DNA of 37,548 nt, from the NCBI GenBank assembly GCA_031264865.1, contig JAISDJ010000060.1:1-37548 (forward strand), read 5' to 3'. The notes below the pieces were generated by a model. It searched no databases. It was not told the DNA's origin and saw nothing but the letters and a program-made list of their open reading frames with translations. A program made the position numbers and the translations under genes. The stretch is from Tannerellaceae bacterium. GTDB taxonomy: Bacteria > Bacteroidota > Bacteroidia > Bacteroidales > Tannerellaceae. Below, piece by piece: positions 39 to 30,901 of this stretch (its first letter is position 1; every line of letters starts with the position of its first letter).

Positions 39-1640
39 TTAATTATTGTAACCCGGATTTTGTGTCAGATTCGGATTACGTTGTATCTCATTGGCCGAGA
101 TTGGAAAGAGCAAATGTGCTTCTTTAAAGGTTTGTCCCCAAGGATTGGTTGCTCCGATGAAATCGACAAAGGTGACTTTACCCGGACTAGTCTCCGATGT
201 TGTCGGATATTTTCTTGTCCGTTGGATATCATCGAAAATGCGAAATTCATAAACCAATTCCCGCATGCGTTCAATCCATACTTCCTGAATGAAAGCTTCT
301 TTAGATAAGCTACTCAGAAAGGTTGCAATTTCTTCACGTGGAGTTGTGGTGTATGCCCGTGAACGTACGTCCGCCAGATAATTAACGGCTTCGGCAGTTA
401 CTCCTTCCGACTGGGCTATCGCTTCGGCTGCGATCAGTAAGACTTCGGCGAAACGGTAGATCGTAAAGTCTTTGTCGCAGTTGGCCGTTTCCATCGCTGC
501 ACTTTCCTGATACCATAGATGAGCTGCAGGAGAGGCATTCTCCGGGATTTTGAACGCAATGGTTTCTCCATTTTTTTCGTATGTGATTGTATAGGAGAAG
601 AACTGATCTTGCTGCGAACGTAAATCCTTTTCTTTATCATATACATTCATATATTGTTTTACCGGACGGTAACCACTGTTGGTGATTGAATATTTGTAAA
701 CACTCCAAGTCGCCGCGATGTTGGGAAGACTGGATTGTACACGTCCGTTATTGACCGTAATACCTGTTACAAACTCCAGGTTATAGATATATTCCGGATC
801 ATCGTCTACTGTACGGATCATATTATAAGCGCTTTCTTCCGGAGTCGCTCCGTTAGGGATCAGACGATGTTTACCACTGTTGATTACATTACGTGTAGTA
901 GCAGCAGCATCGGCATAGTTGCCCGACTGCAACGGATACCCGCTCATCTGAAGATAAACATGTGCCAAGACCGTTTCCGCCGTGTAACGGCTGATGCGAT
1001 GATTATTATTGCAAAAGGCTTCTGCCGGTAAAACTCCGATCGCATCTTTCAAGTCTTGTACTACCTGCGCATAGACCTCTGTCAGGTTTGTACGGCTCCG
1101 ATAGATATCATCCAGAGATTCAAAAGGATCTAGACTTAATGGCACATCTCCGAAAGTTCTTGCCAGATAGAAATAATTGAAAGCACGGAAGAACTTTGCC
1201 TCTGCAAGCAACGTTGCCTTTTCACTATCGGAAAGTCGCGGAGTTTCCGGAATATATTTGATTGCCGTGTTTGCCCGGTTGATACTTGTGAAGGGATCAT
1301 CCCACATCTTGTCTAATGAATTGGCAATATTCTGAGCTGTAATAGATAGTTTCTGGCTATAATCACATATTATTTCTTGCCCTTTATATTCATTGTCGAA
1401 GAAGCCGGAAAGATAGCCACCATTGGCCGCTGTCTGCATATTATACACACCGCCATCGGCCACAAAGTTTGGCGCTCCAATCCGATACAACGCATTCACT
1501 GCACTCTGGGCATGAGCCGGAGTGGAGAAGTTCTGATTCATACTCATACTAGATTTCGGTTTTTCTTCCAGGAAACCTTCACATGAGACTGCAATACCTA
1601 AAAAGGCAATGCAGCTTAGTTTTACTATTCTATTTTTCAT
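39..1640 (-). CDS. SusD/RagB family nutrient-binding outer membrane lipoprotein
   Basis: 533 aa ORF; lipoprotein-like N-terminus (LSCIAFLGIAVSCEGFLEEKPKSS), SusD motifs (ALLAEAKFFRAFNYFYLARTFGDVPL; RFAEVLLIAAEA; NPGYNN C-terminus); directly downstream of susC-like gene. Confidence 0.95.
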   Translation of the reverse strand: MKNRIVKLSCIAFLGIAVSCEGFLEEKPKSSMSMNQNFSTPAHAQSAVNALYRIGAPNFVADGGVYNMQTAANGGYLSGFFDNEYKGQEIICDYSQKLSITAQNIANSLDKMWDDPFTSINRANTAIKYIPETPRLSDSEKATLLAEAKFFRAFNYFYLARTFGDVPLSLDPFESLDDIYRSRTNLTEVYAQVVQDLKDAIGVLPAEAFCNNNHRISRYTAETVLAHVYLQMSGYPLQSGNYADAAATTRNVINSGKHRLIPNGATPEESAYNMIRTVDDDPEYIYNLEFVTGITVNNGRVQSSLPNIAATWSVYKYSITNSGYRPVKQYMNVYDKEKDLRSQQDQFFSYTITYEKNGETIAFKIPENASPAAHLWYQESAAMETANCDKDFTIYRFAEVLLIAAEAIAQSEGVTAEAVNYLADVRSRAYTTTPREEIATFLSSLSKEAFIQEVWIERMRELVYEFRIFDDIQRTRKYPTTSETSPGKVTFVDFIGATNPWGQTFKEAHLLFPISANEIQRNPNLTQNPGYNN

Positions 1641-1660
1641 CTTATTAATTCATTAGGTTA

Positions 1661-4600
1661 TTAAAATGTTATATTTACGCCCAGTACCCATGTCCGGGGT
1701 TTCGGATACTGATAGAAGAATACATTTTGTCCCCACTGATTAGTGCCCTGAGAAGTTCCTTCCGGATCTAAGCCCTGGAAATCATTGGAATGGATAACGA
1801 AAGCATTATTTACACTGGCGTATATGCGAAAGGCGGACAGTTTCATTGCCGCCGCCGTTTTCCTGTCGAAAGAATAGCCCAACTGGATTAGATTGGTGCG
1901 CAGATAAGAGCCGTCGGCTACCCAATGGGAATCGAGTTGCGAACTTTGCCCGGTAAGGTTATAGTTGCGTATTGCCTGTACCATGGTGTTGGGGTTTGTA
2001 CCATTATACCCTTCTGTCAGAATCGTTTTCAGTCCATTACCCAAGCCAAAACGGTCTTCCGCCGAATGATAGAATTGCTGCAAGACCTCTACACCGGTGA
2101 CAAACTGTATGTCAACTGTCAGATCGAAGTTCTTATAGGAAAAATTGTTAATGAAGCTACCTGTCAAATCAGGTACTCCTTTTCCAAGGATTTTCTTTTC
2201 TGTAGAACGCTTCGCCTGTCCGACACGGGCGCCAACGGCTTTCGCAGCTTCCTCCTCTTCCTGTGTCCATACGCCTAAGCGTTCATATCCCCAAAATGAA
2301 CTTAGCGATTCGCCGACCCGAAGGATAATATTACTACCCGACACGAAGCTCGGTCCCGGTAGAATATCTTCGTCATTTTCTCCCAGTTTTTCTATTCTAT
2401 TTTTGTTGAAGTTCAGGTTGAGAGTGCTGGTCCATTGGAAATCTTTAGTCTGCACATTCACTGTGTTTAGCATAAAATCGATACCTCTGTTAGATACTTC
2501 CCCAATGTTATCCATCACAGAACTATAGCCTGTAGAATGGGGAACCGGACGGTTCAGCAACAAATCTTTTGTCAGCTTATAGTAGTATGAAATATCGAAG
2601 TTCATCCGGTTATCAAACATATTCAAATTGAAGCCGATATCAAACTGATTGGTTTTTTCCCATTTCAAATCCGGATTGGCCAAACGGGAAGGATAAGATA
2701 TGGATTGACGTTGTCCGTTGATCAGCGTGGTTCCCGAAGTAACCATTGCAAGCGAATTGAATGAACCGATTTCCGAGTTTCCGGTGACACCATAACTGGC
2801 ATGTAGCTTCAACTGGTCGATAAACGAAGCATTTTCCATAAACCCTTCATTGGAAACCAACCAACCCAATCCGACAGAAGGGAAGAAGGCATATTTGTGG
2901 TTCTTACCGAACTTTGACGAACCGTCTACACGTCCGGTCACCGTTGCCATATACCGATCGTCGTATGTATAGGCGCCACGTAGGAAGTATGAATTCATTG
3001 ACCAGTTGCTCCAACTAGAACCGGGTGCTCCCGGATCGGTTGCCGCCCCCAGATTATTATAACCGAAAAAGTCGTCGGTGAAACCTCTAACCGCTATATT
3101 CATATTGGTTTCTCTCCGATTTTGCCAAGACAAACCTGCCATTGCATTCAACCGGTGTTTACCCATAATCTTGTTGTAGGTCAGATAGGTCTCTTCCTGC
3201 CAGTATAAAAGTTGGGTATCACTCATGTAAGCATATCCGTTAGGAGCAGAGATGTTGATTAGGTCGGTCGTATAATATTCTTTGAACTTCCGCAGATGCG
3301 CGTCTACCCCAAACTGAGTTTTCAGGTCCAAGCCCGGAGCCAGATGGAATGTGAGAGCCGCATTTCCGAAGATCTGTGTCCGGTAGCGCATCCGTTGTTG
3401 ATTCTCCAATAAATGAACGGGATTGGCTATCGCCTCGAAGGTAAAGTCACCGGTCGATTGGGAGTTTACCCATTCCCCATCCGGCCATTTTACAGGGAAG
3501 ATAGGAGGCATCTCAATCATTGTCCGGCGGGCATACTGCCCTCCACCTCCTTCGTCGGTGTCATTCTGCCAAGTGTGGTTCATTAATACGTTTATGGCTG
3601 TAGACAACCAACTCAAGGGTTTGGCATCGTAGGTTACTTTTGCATTTACACGCTTCATATACGTATTGAGCATAACTCCTTGCTGATCCGTATAGTTCAG
3701 GAATGCACCGATTGATGAGTTTTTACCCCCTTGCTGAATGGATAGCTGATGGCTGTGTGAAAGTGCCGTGCGTGTTCCTTCTTTCTGCCAATCCGTATCG
3801 TATAACGGGTTTCCGTTTGAATCGAATAGGCGCGGATCGTTCCTGCTGAATGTTTGTGTTCCACCATACCATTTCCGGTTGTTCTCAAAAGCGATATCTA
3901 TCGCTTCCATAAATTCGGCAGCATTCATCACGTCCATTCGACTGGCAGGAGTAGCGATGCTGACATTGCCATTATAGCTAAGCCTGATTCCTTCGCCCTG
4001 GATACCGCGTTTCGTGGTGATCATCAATACACCGTTAGCGCCTCGCGCTCCATAGATTGCTGTGGCCGAGGCGTCTTTCAAGACCTCAATACGCTCGATA
4101 TCATTCGGATTCAGGAATTGAAAGTCTTCCATCACCACACCATCCACTACATAAAGCGGATCGGAAGAAGAATTGATCGTTCCAATCCCCCGAATCATCA
4201 CACGTACGGAGCCGCCCGGTTGTCCGGAGTTAGTAAAGATATTTACCCCGGAAGCTTTCCCTTTCAGTCCCGACAAAGCGTTAAAAGGAGAAGATCTCAA
4301 AATATCTTCCGACGTCGCAATCGAAATGGATCCGGTTACATCCGATTTACGTTGTGTACCATAACCCACAACAACGACTTCTTCAAGAGCTTGAGAGTCT
4401 TCTGTTAATGTGAAATTGATAACCGATTGATTGTCTGCAGGCACTTCCTGTGTGAAGTAACCAATGTAAGAAACCTGTAAAACCGCTCCTTTAGGTACTC
4501 CCGCAAGCGTATATTGTCCGTCGTAGTTTGTAATAGCTCCGATCGTAGAGCCTTTCACTATGACATTGGCTCCGATAATGGGTTCACCATTTGTGTCGGT

Positions 4601-4765
4601 AACCAAACCTGTAATTGTTTTTGTTTGTTGGACGATCGGGTAAATTGCTTTTTCAGTCTTTATGTCCTCTGTGGGCTTTTCAATTGTGAATGAACTAAAC
4701 ACGCATAAGGTGGAAAGAAAAGCTGAAATTCTTATAATTCTTAGAAATTTCGCTACATTTATCAT
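1661..4765 (-). CDS. SusC/RagA family TonB-linked outer membrane protein
   Basis: 1034 aa; carboxypeptidase-D-like N-terminal repeat (GLVTDTNGEPIIGANVIVKG), plug (VVVVGYGTQRKSDVTGSIS, RGIGTINSSSDPLYVVDGV), TonB barrel to the C-terminus. Confidence 0.96.
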   Translation of the reverse strand: MINVAKFLRIIRISAFLSTLCVFSSFTIEKPTEDIKTEKAIYPIVQQTKTITGLVTDTNGEPIIGANVIVKGSTIGAITNYDGQYTLAGVPKGAVLQVSYIGYFTQEVPADNQSVINFTLTEDSQALEEVVVVGYGTQRKSDVTGSISIATSEDILRSSPFNALSGLKGKASGVNIFTNSGQPGGSVRVMIRGIGTINSSSDPLYVVDGVVMEDFQFLNPNDIERIEVLKDASATAIYGARGANGVLMITTKRGIQGEGIRLSYNGNVSIATPASRMDVMNAAEFMEAIDIAFENNRKWYGGTQTFSRNDPRLFDSNGNPLYDTDWQKEGTRTALSHSHQLSIQQGGKNSSIGAFLNYTDQQGVMLNTYMKRVNAKVTYDAKPLSWLSTAINVLMNHTWQNDTDEGGGGQYARRTMIEMPPIFPVKWPDGEWVNSQSTGDFTFEAIANPVHLLENQQRMRYRTQIFGNAALTFHLAPGLDLKTQFGVDAHLRKFKEYYTTDLINISAPNGYAYMSDTQLLYWQEETYLTYNKIMGKHRLNAMAGLSWQNRRETNMNIAVRGFTDDFFGYNNLGAATDPGAPGSSWSNWSMNSYFLRGAYTYDDRYMATVTGRVDGSSKFGKNHKYAFFPSVGLGWLVSNEGFMENASFIDQLKLHASYGVTGNSEIGSFNSLAMVTSGTTLINGQRQSISYPSRLANPDLKWEKTNQFDIGFNLNMFDNRMNFDISYYYKLTKDLLLNRPVPHSTGYSSVMDNIGEVSNRGIDFMLNTVNVQTKDFQWTSTLNLNFNKNRIEKLGENDEDILPGPSFVSGSNIILRVGESLSSFWGYERLGVWTQEEEEAAKAVGARVGQAKRSTEKKILGKGVPDLTGSFINNFSYKNFDLTVDIQFVTGVEVLQQFYHSAEDRFGLGNGLKTILTEGYNGTNPNTMVQAIRNYNLTGQSSQLDSHWVADGSYLRTNLIQLGYSFDRKTAAAMKLSAFRIYASVNNAFVIHSNDFQGLDPEGTSQGTNQWGQNVFFYQYPKPRTWVLGVNITF

Positions 4766-4772
4766 AACTTTG
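4765..4772 (+). promoter_or_regulatory. Bacteroidetes-type -7 promoter motif TAACTTTG, antisense to susC start
   Basis: Exact match to TAnnTTTG on + strand, overlapping the susC start codon region; only a weak TTTC at ~4748 in the -33 position. Confidence 0.4.
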
Positions 4773-4821
4773 TATTTGATTTATTAATACTTGATTTATT
4801 TGTAATCCGGTGTTAATTTCC

Positions 4822-4858
4822 GATCGGAAAGTGTTGCCGCACTTTCCGGTCTTTTTTT
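4822..4858 (+). terminator. Intrinsic terminator on + strand, in the gap between GH38 and susC (antisense to both)
   Basis: GATCGGAAAGTG-TTGCCG-CACTTTCCGGTC hairpin (12-bp stem with one G-T pair) followed by TTTTTTT on + strand. Confidence 0.75.
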
Positions 4859-4919
4859 GTTTTTTTTGACTTTATCTCATAGGCATTCTCAGATTTAATA
4901 GTTTTACAAAAGATAAATA

Positions 4920-7799
4920 TTACCAGCTAATTTTTATAAACTTGCTCTCCCATGGATTGAATTCGGTTGTTTTATTTTCGGGTAAAGGATCGCCCAAAGC
5001 GTCGCAAGCAGTACTATTCCGGATGTTTATTCTATCCGAATGGACAGTCAGGCCGGATTTCTTTCCTCCAATCTCCCGCATCTGCAATAACACAGCGTTT
5101 TCTCCTTCTATCGGTTTCATATTGACCAGTAACAAATTTTCTTCTTCTATCCGGAAAATAGAGGCGGGTTGCAATGGGTTGTTTTGCTTTTCTCCTTTTG
5201 GGAATATACGTGTCAGGAGGGGAATCCGGTTCTCCCAAGCAAACCGGGTAGCACATGCAACTGAAGGATCTTTGTCTGAACGGATAAAGTAACACCATTG
5301 AAGTTCACCCATTTGGTCGGCATTGAAATTGGTTACCCAGTAGTTGTTCATCGGCCAGGAATACATATTGGTTGATTGCGGAACGGCTTCGGCCATGTAG
5401 CGTCCGGTATTGATCTCGCCGAACTGCATCAACGGAATTTCCTGACTACCCATAACGATTTGCATCTCATTGTTTCGTGCCGTTGCAAAGTTCTGCACAG
5501 TATACCAGTCGTTAGAGGAACCTGGAATTTGCTCTACACCTGCTTCTATCGTTCCACCCGGCACATCTGTATATATCTTGCCATTTGCTACTTCAAACGG
5601 AAAGGAGATATAAACCGCTTCCGGATCTATAATCGCTTTCTTTCGTAGGCTATATACAATCTCGATCTTCTTTTCTACATTGAATATCCGGTATTCAACC
5701 ATCAGATTATTCGGTTCCCTGCCGGCAACAGTCTCTCCGCGGAAACGATACGTATCCCATATCGCTCCTTTTTCATAGGCTTCAAATTGTATCTTTTCGG
5801 GTGGACGACGAATAAACTGAGGTTTACGATATTGTTCCATCGGTCGGCGGCTATCAGCAATCTCGTAGATAAATTCGCCTAATTGCCACTCAGCATTCGG
5901 AGTGAGCAGTTGTTGGTTCAGTTCTTTATCGAACAAGCTACTGATTGTTCCACGGCGAAGATTGAATTCGATGGCATACCAATTATTTTCAATACATGGT
6001 TGAGTTAATCCGGTAGAACTGACTGTCGATTCACGTGGCTCGTTCTTTACCCGGATATAATACTGCGCATATCCCAAGGCAGGAACATTTTTCGCATAAA
6101 TCGACCAGTAAGTACCATCCGAACGGCTTGCCCCGGCCTGTGCGGGTATGATATTACCTTTGGCATCGACAATTTCGAACTGCTTATCCCGTGGGAGTAT
6201 CTGGTGGTCTATATACGCTTTGGCAAGGCCACTATAACTCCAATTCAATGTATTGAAAATGATAATCGAAGGAGTTTCAGCCTTTGGAATATATGTTTGT
6301 AACAATCCCATTGCAACTTCCCCTGTCATACCTGAGCGGCGAAAAGCTTCCCAGGCATAAGACTGCTTCAATGAACGCTGTTCCCAAGTGTCTTTCCCGT
6401 ATGGATTACGTACACTCTGACTGAAACCGAATGTATGTTCATCGTAGAAAAGAAGCGCCTTGTTGATCTCGTTAATCTGATCATCAATCGTAGCAGGCAA
6501 AGTAGCTCCCATCATCTTGGCAAACGAAAGCCCTGCCTGGGTAGCGATTACATCCGAATGGGTAATGCGCGAAATTGCGGCTTCTCGTGCACCCGAACCA
6601 AAACCATCTGTCCACCAGTCTGGCCATGCGCCACGTATCGTTTCGATCTTATCGGCATATTTTGTTTCGACTTCTTTAATGAAGTCGGCAGAGACCGCTG
6701 TTCTAAGCTTTGGCCATTCATACTTCTCATTCCACTGCTGTAGCAATTCGCAACATTGTGTGGAAGGAGGAGAATTATCTGTGTGGTAACCGGAATATTG
6801 AACAGCCAGAAGGTCATACGGATAATCCTTGGCGGCAATCTCATCCAAGTAGTTTAACACTCTTTGTTCAAAGAGTTCGAAGTCGGTGGTGTGAACACCA
6901 AAGAAGTTTCCGAGGTGATAATGTTCTGCGCGGTAAGTCAATATTTTCTTTCCGGAAGGAGATTCCCACCAGAAGACAGTTGGTTTGTCGAAACAGATCA
7001 GTGCCCGGTGTCCATGTGTACCCATTGTTACATATTTAATACCCAGATCATGGAAATATTCACTGAAACACCAACCAATTCCATTCACATCGTTTTGCAT
7101 CGCCACTTCTGTTTTCAGTCCGGCTTCACGGAATTGCTTTAAGGGATAGAGCGAGGCCGCCAAAGTTTGTTCGTCGGGCAATTCATCAAAATTAAGGTAC
7201 ATTCCTGCCAGTTCTATCCGGCCTTCTTCCACTCTTTTTTTCAAACGGGCAATCTGTTCTGCCGGACGGCTTTTCAGGTATTCGCTTACGGCCCAGGCTG
7301 TTTCGCATACCCAGCGGAATTTAGCAAAGTCTGGATAGTTGTCCGTTGCATCGCAATAATCCAACGCATAATCGATATACCGCAATTGCTCGGCCAGGAT
7401 TTCCATTTGCGAGCGGGTATAACCGATATCCGTATGTGTGTGTTGCACAAAATTCATATACCAGTTACGGACAGGACTTACGGTTACGGGCGTTGTCAAT
7501 TGTTTTTTATTACAGATTAATGTTACTTCCAGTTGTTTTGCGGAAGTAACCGGATCAACTTCGAGTTGGAACAGGTTTTTCCCGTTCTCCAGTTTTTCTA
7601 TCCGGCTTTTCCCGTCCCAGGCCAAGGTTGCAGTCATCGGTTTCCCTTCATAGTCGATTGCGACCTCTATCTTCTGCTTCGGCCCGTTTTTTGCTTTATA
7701 CAATGCCGGCAACTGACGGGTTTCGATCTTTACGGTCTGTGCCGCCAAGGTTGCAGAAATCAGCAACAGACAAGTTAATAGTAGATTTCGTGTTTTCAT
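4920..7799 (-). CDS. Glycoside hydrolase family 38-like alpha-mannosidase, secreted
   Basis: 959 aa; signal peptide; GH38-like HTHTDIGYT, YLNFDELPDEQTL, AMQNDVNGIGW; C-terminal mannosidase beta domains. Confidence 0.85.
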   Translation of the reverse strand: MKTRNLLLTCLLLISATLAAQTVKIETRQLPALYKAKNGPKQKIEVAIDYEGKPMTATLAWDGKSRIEKLENGKNLFQLEVDPVTSAKQLEVTLICNKKQLTTPVTVSPVRNWYMNFVQHTHTDIGYTRSQMEILAEQLRYIDYALDYCDATDNYPDFAKFRWVCETAWAVSEYLKSRPAEQIARLKKRVEEGRIELAGMYLNFDELPDEQTLAASLYPLKQFREAGLKTEVAMQNDVNGIGWCFSEYFHDLGIKYVTMGTHGHRALICFDKPTVFWWESPSGKKILTYRAEHYHLGNFFGVHTTDFELFEQRVLNYLDEIAAKDYPYDLLAVQYSGYHTDNSPPSTQCCELLQQWNEKYEWPKLRTAVSADFIKEVETKYADKIETIRGAWPDWWTDGFGSGAREAAISRITHSDVIATQAGLSFAKMMGATLPATIDDQINEINKALLFYDEHTFGFSQSVRNPYGKDTWEQRSLKQSYAWEAFRRSGMTGEVAMGLLQTYIPKAETPSIIIFNTLNWSYSGLAKAYIDHQILPRDKQFEIVDAKGNIIPAQAGASRSDGTYWSIYAKNVPALGYAQYYIRVKNEPRESTVSSTGLTQPCIENNWYAIEFNLRRGTISSLFDKELNQQLLTPNAEWQLGEFIYEIADSRRPMEQYRKPQFIRRPPEKIQFEAYEKGAIWDTYRFRGETVAGREPNNLMVEYRIFNVEKKIEIVYSLRKKAIIDPEAVYISFPFEVANGKIYTDVPGGTIEAGVEQIPGSSNDWYTVQNFATARNNEMQIVMGSQEIPLMQFGEINTGRYMAEAVPQSTNMYSWPMNNYWVTNFNADQMGELQWCYFIRSDKDPSVACATRFAWENRIPLLTRIFPKGEKQNNPLQPASIFRIEEENLLLVNMKPIEGENAVLLQMREIGGKKSGLTVHSDRINIRNSTACDALGDPLPENKTTEFNPWESKFIKISW

Positions 7800-7809
7800 T
7801 TACATATAT

Positions 7810-8955
7810 TTAATTGAGTTTAAATGATAGAACAGATAAATAAATCAGGCAAACAAGCAAGAGTGACAATCCCGCGACCTGCTCGAAGCTATCCGATATA
7901 ATTCCCATAAGCGGAGTGATCAAAGCGCCACCCGATACACCCATTATCATCAATGCCGATATTTCATTATTCCGTTCAGGTTTATGACGTAAGGCAAATG
8001 AAAAGATAATAGAGAAAACATTGGCGCACGTCAAGCCGACAGCCACAATCATCGCATACATCACCCAAGGTACATCTGCAATTAATAGAAGAATAAATGC
8101 CGCGATAGCTGCAAACATACTCAACCGGAAGAAATGTCCCGCCGCATATTTGGCAAGCAGGATAGCTCCAACGAAAGAGCCGATCGTACGTGCTGCAAAG
8201 TAAAGGCTTATTCCCAAGCCAGCTTCATTCAGGGTAATCCCGGTTTTATCCATTAATAACTTGGGAATTGTTGTGTTTAGTCCTACATCGATCCCTACAA
8301 TAAAGAGTATCCCCAGAAACAATAATACAATGTATTTGTCTTTAAAGAGAGACAATGTAGTAACTAAAGTCGCATTTGCTTTGCCTGTCTCTTCCTTTCC
8401 AGGGATAATCGAAATAAGCCATACCAGAGAAAGCAATGAAGTCAGCGCATATACGATGAAGATCAGCTTCCAGTCACCCCAAAAAGACGCTGCCGTGGCG
8501 GCAATGATCGGTCCAAGGAAAGAGGATATTGCCTTGATAAACTGTCCCAGAGTGAGTACACTTGTTATCTTATCCGGATTAACCACACTCGCAATCATTG
8601 GATTTAGCGACACCTGCAAAACTGTATTTCCAATCCCTAACAAGGCAAAAGCCAGTAGTATGAAAGAAAATTCATAGAAGAAAAGAGGAATAAGCATAGC
8701 AATCATCGTGACAAGCAATGAAATAGCTACCGTATTGCGCCTTCCGATCTGACTCATTACGATACCTGCCGGAATGGAGAATAAGGCAAACCAAAGAAAC
8801 ACCATCATTGGCAGGAGGTTTGCCAGCGTATCAGACAATTGGAAATCAGCCTTCACATAATTAGTAGCAATACCAACCACATCCACAAACCCCATGACGA
8901 AAAAGCCAAACAAGATTGGAAGTATAACCTTTTGTGAACTCTTGTGTGTTTGCAT
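7810..8955 (-). CDS. MFS sugar permease (FucP-like)
   Basis: 381 aa, about 12 hydrophobic segments; GIVMSQIGRRNTVAISLL MFS loop motif; adjacent to sugar kinase. Confidence 0.85.
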   Translation of the reverse strand: MQTHKSSQKVILPILFGFFVMGFVDVVGIATNYVKADFQLSDTLANLLPMMVFLWFALFSIPAGIVMSQIGRRNTVAISLLVTMIAMLIPLFFYEFSFILLAFALLGIGNTVLQVSLNPMIASVVNPDKITSVLTLGQFIKAISSFLGPIIAATAASFWGDWKLIFIVYALTSLLSLVWLISIIPGKEETGKANATLVTTLSLFKDKYIVLLFLGILFIVGIDVGLNTTIPKLLMDKTGITLNEAGLGISLYFAARTIGSFVGAILLAKYAAGHFFRLSMFAAIAAFILLLIADVPWVMYAMIVAVGLTCANVFSIIFSFALRHKPERNNEISALMIMGVSGGALITPLMGIISDSFEQVAGLSLLLVCLIYLSVLSFKLN

Positions 8956-8965
8956 GTTTCTATAT

Positions 8966-10060
8966 TTAATTATTCAAGTGGTTCAATGCATAAACATAGG
9001 CGCCCATGGATACGGAGCGGTTAGTTCCTTGTTTACTGAATATTATTCCGATTCGTTTCTGTGGATCATAATCGACAGTTTGTTCGGTTCCCGGAACGGC
9101 TGTTTTCAGGGTTTCCCCTTTAACAAAGGCTTTAAACTGCTCCTCATCATTTAGGTTGAATACTTTCATTTGAAGTCGATTGAACGTACTGCCGTCAAGC
9201 ATAGATAGAGTCCCGTTCATCTCTTTTAACAATGCCGGGAGGATGTATTTGGAAGCGCTGGCAAGACCGCCTCCGATCACGATAATGCCATCGATCAGCG
9301 TAACGGCCGTAGACAGCACATCACCAGCCATCTCCCCCAATTCGGACAAAGAGGCAACAGCCGCATTGCGATCTCCTGTTTTCGTTCCTTCTGCAATATC
9401 AAAGATATCTTTGGGTGTCAGTTCGGATGAATCCCCGCTAAGTTTCCGATAAATATGCCTGACGGCACGGATACTTACACTTTCTTCTGCAATCAGGTTG
9501 GGATATTTTTTGTTTCTCAGGCACCATACATCACCGCCTGCTCCGTTATCACCAGTGAGCAACTGCCCGTTGATCACAACACCGGCACCGAATCCGGTTC
9601 CTAAAGTGATTCCTATCAGGTTCTTGTATTGCCTTATGCTCCCCGCTTTGTGTAAACGACGATTTATCTCCGGCAAGATTCCTGTCAAGGCCTCTCCATA
9701 AGCAAAAAGGTTCCCGTCATTATTAATAAACACCGGTATCCCAAAATGTTTCTCCAGAAAGGGGCCCAATGCTACCCCTCCACGGAAAGCCGGGAAGTTA
9801 GGCAGATCACCTATAATGCCTGCCGCATAATCCGCCGGACCGGGGAAAGCAAAGCTGATTGCAACAGGAGCTTCAACTAAAGAATCGCGAACCATCCCAA
9901 ATCCCTTAATCAGAGAATCTAAACATACGGTCAAATTATCAGGTGAAGTCGGTAATATGATTGGCTCAATCAGCTCCTTACCAGCCTGGATTGCAGAGAA
10001 GGCTAAGTTTGTACCTCCGGCATCCAATGTCATTACTATTCGTTGATCGTTTTTATACAT
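8966..10060 (-). CDS. ROK family sugar kinase
   Basis: Likely start ATG at 10060 (MYKNDQRIVMTLDAGGTNLAFSAIQ) rather than the longer ORF start; ROK motifs DAGGTN, INNDGNLFAYGEA, GITLGTGFGAGVVINGQLLTGDNGAGGDVW. Confidence 0.9.
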   Translation of the reverse strand: MYKNDQRIVMTLDAGGTNLAFSAIQAGKELIEPIILPTSPDNLTVCLDSLIKGFGMVRDSLVEAPVAISFAFPGPADYAAGIIGDLPNFPAFRGGVALGPFLEKHFGIPVFINNDGNLFAYGEALTGILPEINRRLHKAGSIRQYKNLIGITLGTGFGAGVVINGQLLTGDNGAGGDVWCLRNKKYPNLIAEESVSIRAVRHIYRKLSGDSSELTPKDIFDIAEGTKTGDRNAAVASLSELGEMAGDVLSTAVTLIDGIIVIGGGLASASKYILPALLKEMNGTLSMLDGSTFNRLQMKVFNLNDEEQFKAFVKGETLKTAVPGTEQTVDYDPQKRIGIIFSKQGTNRSVSMGAYVYALNHLNN

Positions 10061-10100
10061 GGTACTATTTCTTAAACTGCGATGATAGAGTGGTTGTTTT

Positions 10101-11840
10101 TTACTCCCTGAAACGCACATACGCTTTAATTGTTCCGCATTCTTTCGTTGGGTCAGCCGGCCGGATCGTATAATTACCAACAGCCGCGGGAATGATAAAT
10201 GTCTCGGCATAATGCACAGTGAAAGGTTCGAAAGTATCTGTTGGACTTTCCACGATCAGTTCGTCTCCTTCAATCGCATTCAACACATTGACTCCGCCGC
10301 CCGTATGATGCGTTACCTTTCCGGTAAACCAATGCCGACGTGTTTCAATAAATTCATTTTCATGCAAACCTGTACGTTCTTCCTGCCAATCATTGCCTTC
10401 GGCGACAGTCTCCATCCTATTAATCAATTGGGTGCGGGTATATTCCGTATCCCTGTCCCATTGCAACACACGGGAACCATGTTCGATATTGATCGGGCGA
10501 GGTTTGCCGTCTAATCCCATCCGTCCCCAATCCCATAGTTTAAAGGTGAAAATGCTGGGAGTCGAACTTATCTCCAGTACCATTGCACTCTGCCCGGAGC
10601 AGTGAATCGTCCCGCTTGGAATCAGGTAATGATCGTGTTTTTTAGCAGGCCATTTGTTTACATACTGTTCAACATCAAAGCTTATCCCTTCCTGTTGGGC
10701 TTTCTGCAAATCGGCGATCATTTCCCCGGGATCAATACCTGTCTTCAGTCCTAAATAAACCGTTGCTCCTTCTGTTGCATCCAACAGGTAGTAACTTTCA
10801 TCCTGTGTATAATAAATCCCGAACGTATCCCGAATATATTGCGTTGTAGGATGTACTTGCAGACTGAGGTTTCCTCCTTGCATTGTATCCAGGAAGTCAA
10901 AGCGGATTGGAAAGTCTTGTCCGAACCTGGCTTCTACCGGTTCTCCCAGAAGCGCCTCTGTCTGATAAAATACCAGATTATTAGCAGGCATCTCAAACAA
11001 TTCACCTGAAACATTCAAATATAAACTGTTTTCTTCCGGTACACAATCAAAACACCATCCATAATTATTAGTACCCCGATCAAGATTGCAAACCTCTTTC
11101 ATCCATTGCCCTCCCCAGGGAGCCGGATCAAAGAAAGGAACGACACGGAAAGGACGATTGGCTGTTTTGATTAACCCGCTCAGTACCGTCTCTTTACTGA
11201 TCATCTTCGGATTGTCTGACTGATGAGTATCCAACCAATAATCCACCCTTTCAAACAGCCCCTTCTTTATGTTATCACATACGATCCAATCAATAAAATA
11301 TCCCCGTTTATAATGAATAGAAGGTTCGTCATTTCGGTTTTCTACGCCTAATCCATTGATTTCTTTCCGGCGAAAACGTTGTTGTATCTCCCAACGAGCC
11401 ATATCGACATAGATCAACAGATCGGGATTCGGACATATCGCGGAGGCTCCATATCCATATATTAATGTAAAGCCTTCTTGTCTATCCAACTTCTTTTTCG
11501 CTACAGCCAATTTTTCGTCATCAAAGAAATCCGTGATAGAAAAGGAAGTTCTTCGGCCGAAAATACGATCATCCGTCAGATAAGGAGCCGTCATGGCTTC
11601 CACCTTTGCAGGCGTCTTAAACAATTGAAGCATATCAATCAGGCAATCGGGGCGTAGGGCAAGAAACCGATTTAATAACTCCTTATAATAAACACCTTGA
11701 TAACACTCAACAACACAGACAAACCGGCCTTTTCCTCCGGATATCTCTTCCTTTAGTTTATCAATAATCGTATTCCATCCTTTCCAGAACCGTCCGTCGA
11801 TAATCGTTGCCGGACTTTTATCATAATTACTTCTACGCAT
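10101..11840 (-). CDS. Type I mannose-6-phosphate isomerase-like protein with extra N-terminal kinase-like domain
   Basis: 579 aa; C-terminal PMI domain (FFDPAPWGGQWM, NLSLQVHPT, HYLIPSGTIHCSGQSAMVLEIS); N-terminal ~220 aa resembles a nucleoside/uridine kinase fold without a Walker A. Confidence 0.8.
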   Translation of the reverse strand: MRRSNYDKSPATIIDGRFWKGWNTIIDKLKEEISGGKGRFVCVVECYQGVYYKELLNRFLALRPDCLIDMLQLFKTPAKVEAMTAPYLTDDRIFGRRTSFSITDFFDDEKLAVAKKKLDRQEGFTLIYGYGASAICPNPDLLIYVDMARWEIQQRFRRKEINGLGVENRNDEPSIHYKRGYFIDWIVCDNIKKGLFERVDYWLDTHQSDNPKMISKETVLSGLIKTANRPFRVVPFFDPAPWGGQWMKEVCNLDRGTNNYGWCFDCVPEENSLYLNVSGELFEMPANNLVFYQTEALLGEPVEARFGQDFPIRFDFLDTMQGGNLSLQVHPTTQYIRDTFGIYYTQDESYYLLDATEGATVYLGLKTGIDPGEMIADLQKAQQEGISFDVEQYVNKWPAKKHDHYLIPSGTIHCSGQSAMVLEISSTPSIFTFKLWDWGRMGLDGKPRPINIEHGSRVLQWDRDTEYTRTQLINRMETVAEGNDWQEERTGLHENEFIETRRHWFTGKVTHHTGGGVNVLNAIEGDELIVESPTDTFEPFTVHYAETFIIPAAVGNYTIRPADPTKECGTIKAYVRFRE

Positions 11841-28913: not shown

Positions 28914-30464
28914 ATGGTAGCAAAACAAGACAGGATACTTTGGGCCGATGATGAGATTGATTTATTGAAACCTCATATTCTCTTTCTACAAGATAAAGGG
29001 TATGAGGTCGTACCCGTAGTCAGCGGGCAAGACGCGATAGACCGATGTAAAGAAGAGACGTTCGATATTATTTTCCTCGATGAAAATATGCCGGGACTGA
29101 CGGGGTTGGAAACATTGTCGGTTATCAAAGAGATAGACCCGACTGTTCCGGTAGTAATGGTAACAAAAAGCGAGGAAGAGAGTATTATGAATCAGGCTAT
29201 TGGAAATAAAATAGCCGACTACTTGATTAAGCCGGTAAATCCGAACCAACTACTCCTCTTCATAAAAAAGAATGTGCATAAGGATAAGTTTATCACTGAG
29301 ACGACAACAGTAAGTTACCAACAGGAGTTTTCCCGTATCGGGATGCAAATAAACGATTCGCTTACGGCAAACGATTGGATAGAAGTATATAAGAAACTTG
29401 TATTCTGGGAATTAGAACTCGAAAGCGGACAAACGCAAATGATGGATATGCTTCGTATGCAAAAGAAAGAAGCCAATAATTCATTTGGAAAGTTTGTGAA
29501 AAAACATTATATCGATTGGATACAACATCCCGACGACCGTCCGCTGATGAGCCCGGATTTGTTCAAGAAAAAGATATTCCCATTGCTTGATAAAGATGAA
29601 AAATTATTCTTTATCCTGATAGATAATTTTCGTCTCGACCAATGGCGCGTGATAAAGGAACTATTGGCCGGTTACTTTACATTTGAAGAAGATTTATATT
29701 ATACAATCCTTCCTACCGCTACCCAATATGCCCGTAATTCCATCTTTTCGGGACTGATGCCGGTACAGATAGAACAACTTTTCCCGGATTTATGGGTAGA
29801 TGAAGAAAGTGAAGAAGGAAAAAATCTGAATGAAGCTCCTCTTATTCAGACACAGTTCGACCGTTTCCGAAAGAAATATTCCTTCTCGTATAATAAGATA
29901 AATGATTCGATGCATGGCGAAAAACTACTGAATAATGTTCATTCGCTTATGCAAAATCAGTTAAATGTTGTTGTGTTGAATTTTATCGATATGTTGTCTC
30001 ATGCCCGTACCGAAATGAAAATGATTCGTGAACTGGCACAAAGTGAAGCAGCGTATCGTAGTTTGACGAAATCATGGTTTCAACATTCTACTACGTTGGA
30101 GCTTTTCCGCTGGATTGCCGATAAAGGTTATAAAGTAATCCTGACTACCGACCATGGAACGATTCGTGTAGATGACCCAATAAAGATTATAGGCGATAAA
30201 AATACAAATACCAACTTACGATATAAAGTAGGGAAAAACCTTAGCTATAATCCAAAAGAAGTATTTGAAATACGGGAACCCGAAAAGGTAGGTTTGCCTT
30301 CGCCCAACCTGAGTAGTAAGTATATCTTTGCCGTGAATGAAGGTTTCTTTGCTTACCCTAATAATTACAATTATTATGTGTCTTATTTTAAGAACACCTT
30401 TCAGCATGGAGGTGTTTCAATGGAAGAAATGATGGTACCGTTCATAACGATGAATCCGAAATGA
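28914..30464 (+). CDS. porX: PorX, response regulator with PglZ/alkaline-phosphatase-like domain (T9SS regulator)
   Basis: REC domain ([25 protein letters not shown]...[17 protein letters not shown]...KPVNPNQLL) plus PglZ-like effector ([13 protein letters not shown]...TTDHGTIRV). Confidence 0.93.
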
Positions 30465-30901
30465 AACAGATACAAATAAAATCAGTAGAAGAGATAAAAC
30501 AAGCCGCCCGAACTTTTGTTGAGACATCTATTTCTTCATCCGTTTTTGCTTTTCATGGGAGTATGGGAGCGGGGAAAACTACTTTTATCAAAGCTATTTG
30601 CGAAGAGTTGGGAGTAGAGGATGTAATCAACAGCCCGACATTTGCTATTATTAATGAATACCGGAGCGGAAAGTCCGGCGAACTTATTTATCATTTTGAT
30701 TTTTATCGTATCAATAAATTAAGCGAAGCGGAAGATTTGGGCGTAGGAGATTATTTCTATAGTGGTGCATTATGCTTTATCGAATGGCCGGAGAAGATAG
30801 AAGAGCTTCTACCGGAAGACGTTGTTAATGTATCTATTACCGAAAACCCAGATAGCACACGTACCGTTTCTATCTACACAGCTTCTGAAAAAATGTATTA
30901 A
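30461..30901 (+). CDS. tsaE: tRNA threonylcarbamoyladenosine biosynthesis ATPase TsaE
   Basis: Walker [55 protein letters not shown]; 4-bp overlap with porX stop. Confidence 0.96.

Follow-up and report, generated by a model that had tools for sequence, protein, structure and literature searches.

Why should the 154-bp gap between a GH38 alpha-mannosidase gene and the susC gene downstream of it, both read from the minus strand, hold an intrinsic terminator that faces the other way? Antisense RNAs of polysaccharide utilization loci (PULs) are known yet poorly understood, and a first-pass annotation of the 37,548-nucleotide stretch analyzed here (the window) had proposed that this terminator and a promoter box over the susC start codon together specify a cis-antisense RNA of ~80 nt comparable to DonS. 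On re-reading the window, the positions and sequences that it gave for box and terminator proved exact to the base. Its description of the terminator as perfect holds for a strong hairpin followed by T7, the stem being perfect save for G-U pairing, and its remark that all genes lie on the minus strand is true of 39-11840 but not of the window as a whole. The features on which the argument turns are the following.

39..1640, minus strand: susD (PF07980/PF14322)
1661..4765, minus strand: susC, 1034 aa, without an STN domain (TIGR04056, 852 bits)
4765..4772, plus strand: TAACTTTG box, putative sigma-ABfr -7 element of the antisense promoter (sequence; recurrence in SusC leaders)
4779..4858, plus strand: predicted antisense RNA of ~79 nt, a 5' stem-loop and then a terminator (folding; family sizes)
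~4783..4817, plus strand: 5' stem-loop of the predicted antisense RNA, UUAAUAC ... GUGUUAA (folding; conservation)
4822..4858, plus strand: intrinsic terminator, hairpin 4822-4851 plus T7 4852-4858 (sequence; terminator scan; recurrence)
4878..4884, minus strand: GCCTATG(A), putative -10 element of an ECF-sigma-type susC sense promoter, ~112-119 nt upstream of the ATG (conservation)
4920..7799, minus strand: GH38 alpha-mannosidase gene, upstream of susC (PF01074)

The box TAACTTTG begins at the base opposite the A of the susC start codon (ATG, 4763-4765), and the terminator reads GATCGGAAAGTG-TTGCCG-CACTTTCCGGTC at 4822-4851 on the plus strand, with T7 at 4852-4858. Its stem comprises 12 bp including one G-U, or 13 pairs around a 4-nt loop in the version returned by the terminator scan, and it ranks strongest among the plus-strand terminators of the window; when the window was shuffled 60 times with its dinucleotides preserved, both strands together yielded a single terminator of at least 11 bp plus T6, so that ~0.02 are expected per window. 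With the 5' end assumed to lie 7 nt past the box, the length from box to T-run predicts an RNA of ~79 nt, in keeping with the size first proposed, that would pair along its whole length with the susC 5' leader, between about -14 and -93 counted from the ATG. For this RNA (4779-4858) the predicted folding energy is -29 kcal/mol (z = -7.3), a stability reached by 0 of 200 shuffles, and its 5' stem-loop folded by itself gives a z of -4.0. The promoter motif by itself is poor, weak evidence, as TAnnTTTG occurs 57 times in the window against 36.6 +/- 7.0 expected; a -33 TTG at the expected distance from the box is absent in the window, and the family of similar leaders from the same genome, described below, lacks a clear -33 signal. 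The signal rises above chance because the box sits over the susC start codon in an exact register and because the pair of box and terminator recurs in homologous loci. A sigma-70 scan returned a separate candidate, TGGAAA-16-TATAAT at 4711-4738, which was set aside because it lies inside susC and is of a promoter type that Bacteroidota are not known to use.

To establish how far the pair recurs we used 88 TonB-plug (mostly SusC) leaders of the source assembly (draft, 4.69 Mb in 376 contigs, contamination 6.9%), 38 of them from genes with an STN extension and 50 from genes without, a split made by N-terminus length with which a PF07660 search agrees in general. The box CATANNTTTG stood exactly over the start codon in 22 of the 38 STN-SusC leaders and in a single one of the 50 non-STN leaders, namely that of the window; with the window left out, the comparison is 22/38 versus 0/49 (Fisher p about 1e-10). 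Between 40 and 160 nt ahead of the start, the antisense strand carried a hairpin with a T-run in 14/38 STN and 2/50 non-STN leaders, the latter being the window and one symmetrical repeat, which leaves 14/38 versus 1/49 without the window (p 2e-5). The same terminator search on the sense strand, run as a control, yielded 0/38 and 1/50, respectively. Both box and hairpin were found in 20 leaders; in about 20 leaders hairpins of differing sequence share one distance from the ATG, and the RNAs predicted for the family measure 76-123 nt. Doubtful members of this family are L101, where the box lies at an internal ATG, L098, which has no real hairpin, and L108, whose perfect inverted repeat would terminate both ways. 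The last of these (G000:C208) has its perfect 40-nt inverted repeat 94-136 nt before a non-STN susC, with T-runs on both sides, and is a candidate bidirectional terminator.

Promoter and terminator, whose conservation as a pair the first-pass annotation had suggested checking, thus occupy the same site in ~20 other SusC leaders of this genome, and they do so in the homologous leaders of related genomes as well. An alignment of eight leaders (that of the window, one from each of six further genomes of its genus, and that of a paralogue located on contig C78) has in common CATAACTT(TG), the 5' stem TTAATAC...GTGTTA, the terminator, and CATAGGC past the terminator, with the exception of L005, in which an insertion breaks the box. 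Pairing within the 5' stem is preserved, a U-G pair being present in 8/8 homologues. RNAalifold recovered this stem from the eight-sequence alignment, but a bulge that displaces one arm led it to mis-pair part of the terminator. For this reason the assessment of the terminator relied on a strand-neutral test of G-U against A-C oppositions and not on column pairs. With stems chosen without regard to strand, antisense-only oppositions (G-U) numbered 42 versus 6 sense-only oppositions (A-C; p = 1e-7), and the G-U pairs in the hairpin of the window would be A-C on the susC mRNA. On the strength of this 42:6 ratio we conclude that the hairpin is kept as an antisense, plus-strand RNA.

This result bears on the reading of the hairpin as a sense-strand 5' UTR element of the susC mRNA, acting in stability or attenuation, next to which the antisense promoter would be a coincidence. 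The minus strand does fold the hairpin too, with less stability, but the ratio of oppositions favours the antisense strand, the T-run stands on the antisense side only, and box and hairpin turn up together in a single register, so that we consider a sense-strand element barely credible. Transcription termination for GH38 by a bidirectional hairpin was ruled out as well, because the minus strand, which has an A-run ahead of the hairpin, has no T-run behind it.

The antisense module of box, hairpin and T-run extends well past these relatives. A strict pattern with T7 matched in 32 of 125 genomes of the taxonomic family (a single hit with the reversed-pattern control), and a relaxed pattern with T6 in 22 of 393 genomes of the order (control, 3 hits). 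Of 33 loci taken from both searches, 27 have a SusC-like ORF whose first codon is exactly the ATG that the box covers; these come from at least 10 Bacteroidales families, and in 27/27 the carboxypeptidase-like domain begins near residue 120-145, behind an N-terminal extension as in STN-SusC. A looser order-wide pattern, CATANNTTTGN{85,115}CATAGGC, was dropped as noisy since its reversed control also matched, and the T-run version was therefore used instead. The linkage of the module to an STN-type SusC with ECF sigma/anti-sigma genes, an association found in the present analysis and not taken from the founding DonS paper, holds for nearly all copies other than that of the window. The signature of an antisense -7 box on the start codon, a hairpin with T-run, and GCCTATG upstream marks STN-SusC genes in at least 10 Bacteroidales families; it would allow such RNAs to be annotated without RNA-seq and points to precise mutations for testing how they work.

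Sequence comparison thus establishes the elements, their register, their conservation and the strand of the hairpin. Because the same layout stands at other SusC genes, the hairpin is selected on the plus strand and the pattern finds SusC starts across families, our best explanation, to which we assign a probability of roughly 0.75, is that the window carries a plus-strand gene for a ~79-nt DonS-like PUL cis-antisense RNA that would lower susC expression by the mechanism proposed below. This supports the DonS-kind reading of the first-pass annotation, as far as sequence can. DonS family RNAs of 78-128 nt have been reported (PMC7366714), a range that agrees with the 79 nt predicted for the window and the 76-123 nt predicted for the family described here, and 32 PUL antisense RNAs are described in B. 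thetaiotaomicron (PMC10994844). Like DonS family members, the predicted RNA, of ~80 nt, lies antisense to a susC homologue and points away from it, preceded by a sigma-ABfr-type promoter, ended by an intrinsic terminator, and placed in a glycan PUL (a mannoside locus in the window), a likeness drawn from layout, size and published description. Unlike them, it faces a SusC without an STN domain, with no adjoining sigma/anti-sigma genes and with a susC that, instead of leading its operon, comes 154 bp after GH38; the Tannerellaceae relatives of the window are, moreover, suspected to be termite-associated, whereas the DonS family comes from human-gut Bacteroides. The kind of RNA is thus already known from DonS and its relatives in Bacteroides, and the window, judged by its predicted features, is a further member. 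The literature covered, which does not extend to the founding DonS study, was not found to describe the fixed placement of the box over the start codon, the sense motif GCCTATGA just upstream, the pairing with STN-SusC, or an STN-less copy set behind GH38 in a mannoside operon. A search of the predicted RNA against Rfam matched no family above its cut-off. A sub-threshold match to SymR (RF01809; 4783-4854, plus strand; 22.2 bits against a cut-off of 61, E 0.044) reflects a similar arrangement, in that SymR, antisense to symE in E. coli, also covers a start site with two hairpins and a similar terminator stem; the window holds no SymE toxin gene, and the resemblance is in the way of working only.

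Action in trans on other susC leaders has a precedent in FopS and GibS, the RbpB-associated RNAs of B. thetaiotaomicron that repress SusC-type transporters at translation initiation and end, like the predicted RNA, in an intrinsic terminator (PMC11697453). That related susC leaders have segments such as TTAATACTTAATT in common, and that antisense RNAs account for 4 of the 14 FopS members (PMC11697453), would suit a mainly trans-acting role. FopS RNAs, however, are paralogous, mostly intergenic and equipped with a single-stranded 5' seed ahead of the terminator, whereas the 5' half of the predicted RNA folds as a hairpin and its complementarity is perfect in cis only; we regard a principal role in trans as very improbable.

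A putative sense promoter lies ahead of susC, with the motif GCCTATGA just upstream. CATAGGC, which is GCCTATG on the susC strand, is invariant in the eight homologues, and of 23 own-genome members 16 carry GC[CGA]TATG; an AAC-containing motif usually precedes it by 12-15 nt, a spacing that is 16 in the window. The predicted start of susC transcription would lie ~10 nt past the end of the antisense RNA, which would therefore span nearly the whole leader. As an observation in its own right, GCCTATG(A) recurs ~112-134 nt before STN-susC start codons, in the window and its homologues; it is likely to serve as the -10 element that the ECF sigma factors encoded there recognize, and could help to assign ECF promoters.

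For the DonS-like cis-antisense RNA we infer transcription, the type of the sense promoter, repression of susC and its route from this arrangement. RNA polymerase with the housekeeping factor sigma-ABfr would start at ~4779 from the -7 box inside the susC start codon, run away from susC across the whole leader and stop at 4852-4858, so that the RNA ends a few bases before the point where susC transcription is predicted to begin. Whenever the sense promoter is silent or weakly active, the antisense RNA would pair with the leader of whatever susC mRNA is present, read-through transcripts of the GH38 operon among them. The duplex would cover the leader next to the start codon and block translation and/or open the mRNA to RNases; strong susC transcription would override it. 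Because the two promoters converge, mutual interference between polymerases is an added possibility. A repressive effect is likely but not automatic: PMC7366714 and PMC10994844 cite reports of repression by DonS of B. fragilis, and the sign of the effect is uncertain because some PUL antisense RNAs of B. thetaiotaomicron correlate positively with their susC (PMC10994844).

The pair of box and terminator could serve insulation only, antisense transcription acting by polymerase collision or barring pervasive antisense transcription from upstream genes, with the RNA a non-functional by-product. The antisense promoter is indeed convergent with and downstream of the sense promoter, and a large part of the antisense transcription in B. 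thetaiotaomicron is considered spurious (PMC7366714). Collision alone, however, needs neither a conserved 5' stem-loop nor a narrow size range, and repression by DonS is reported for this RNA family (PMC10994844), which makes pure insulation quite unlikely. We tentatively entertain, as a rather speculative idea, that -7 box and susC start codon are fused into a single composite element of fixed layout (sense CAAANNTATG) at which sigma-ABfr polymerase on the antisense promoter and a ribosome or sense polymerase at the susC start would exclude each other. Together with the ECF-type sense promoter at the far end of the leader, this would make a compact switch from housekeeping to ECF sigma factors and back, shared by STN-SusC genes across Bacteroidales and, in the window, perhaps rewired to another input after loss of the sensor domain.

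The setting of the window is atypical for this cis-antisense RNA because its SusC lacks the STN domain and because GH38, not a FecR anti-sigma gene, lies upstream. A PF07660 (STN) search of the window SusC gave no match, whereas four homologues matched, and neither a sigma nor a FecR gene was found among the genes examined around susC. Among candidate ECF sigma genes, that of contig C78 comes first, its anti-sigma being the nearest (67% identical). The operon runs ManA-like gene, ROK kinase, MFS transporter, GH38, susC, susD, with an AraC-type gene divergent. By SusC, the closest named relative is the Tannerellaceae MAG Nc350_bin62 (82% identical), and the nearest STN-bearing homologues, G017 and G014 (78% identical), lie in units of the order sigma - FecR anti-sigma - susC - susD, which carry the same antisense module. 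The window SusC retains a signal peptide and a leader homologous to the STN-bearing form, and since alignment to the 78% homologues holds on both sides of the gap, over the signal peptide and over the part that follows STN, STN was evidently lost in frame. GH38 orthologues (67-74% identical) occur in many genomes of the family, and only one of 11 GH38 loci inspected (L151) has a related susC downstream, which is STN-less and has a different leader and no module.

The window is the only STN-less copy of the module seen, which raises the reading that the module is a relic, inherited from an STN-SusC with its sigma/anti-sigma genes and perhaps still transcribed but regulating nothing in the rearranged operon. 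G017 and G014 unite sigma, FecR anti-sigma, antisense RNA and susC-susD, while the window has lost STN and both regulators; the spacing within its sense promoter is altered; and the module is absent from two STN-less homologues, G004 and G009 (82% identical), the latter judged on the 121 bp upstream that remain before the contig edge. Against a relic, the box, the 5' stem and the terminator with T7 are all intact in the window. G009, moreover, is also STN-less with a similar junction, so that STN loss may predate the split between the two, again subject to its short upstream sequence; if so, the module has been kept for a long time. Retention in the window could be either functional or a relic, and we consider the relic unlikely. 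The window copy offers a natural experiment, in which the RNA module occurs without the SusC sensor domain and without an adjoining sigma/anti-sigma pair.

Several minor observations accompany these results. At 95-122 of L135 (G009:C108) there is no in-frame ATG, GTG or TTG before the signal peptide of the STN-less homologue, for which we suspect the contig edge or a sequence error. The ROK ORF (8966-10210, minus strand) and the ManA-like ORF (10101-11840, minus strand) overlap by 110 nt as called from their first ATG, and the true ROK start is probably further in. At 28914-30464 on the plus strand lies a PorX-like fusion of a response regulator and a PglZ domain, adjoining a TsaE gene at 30461-30901.
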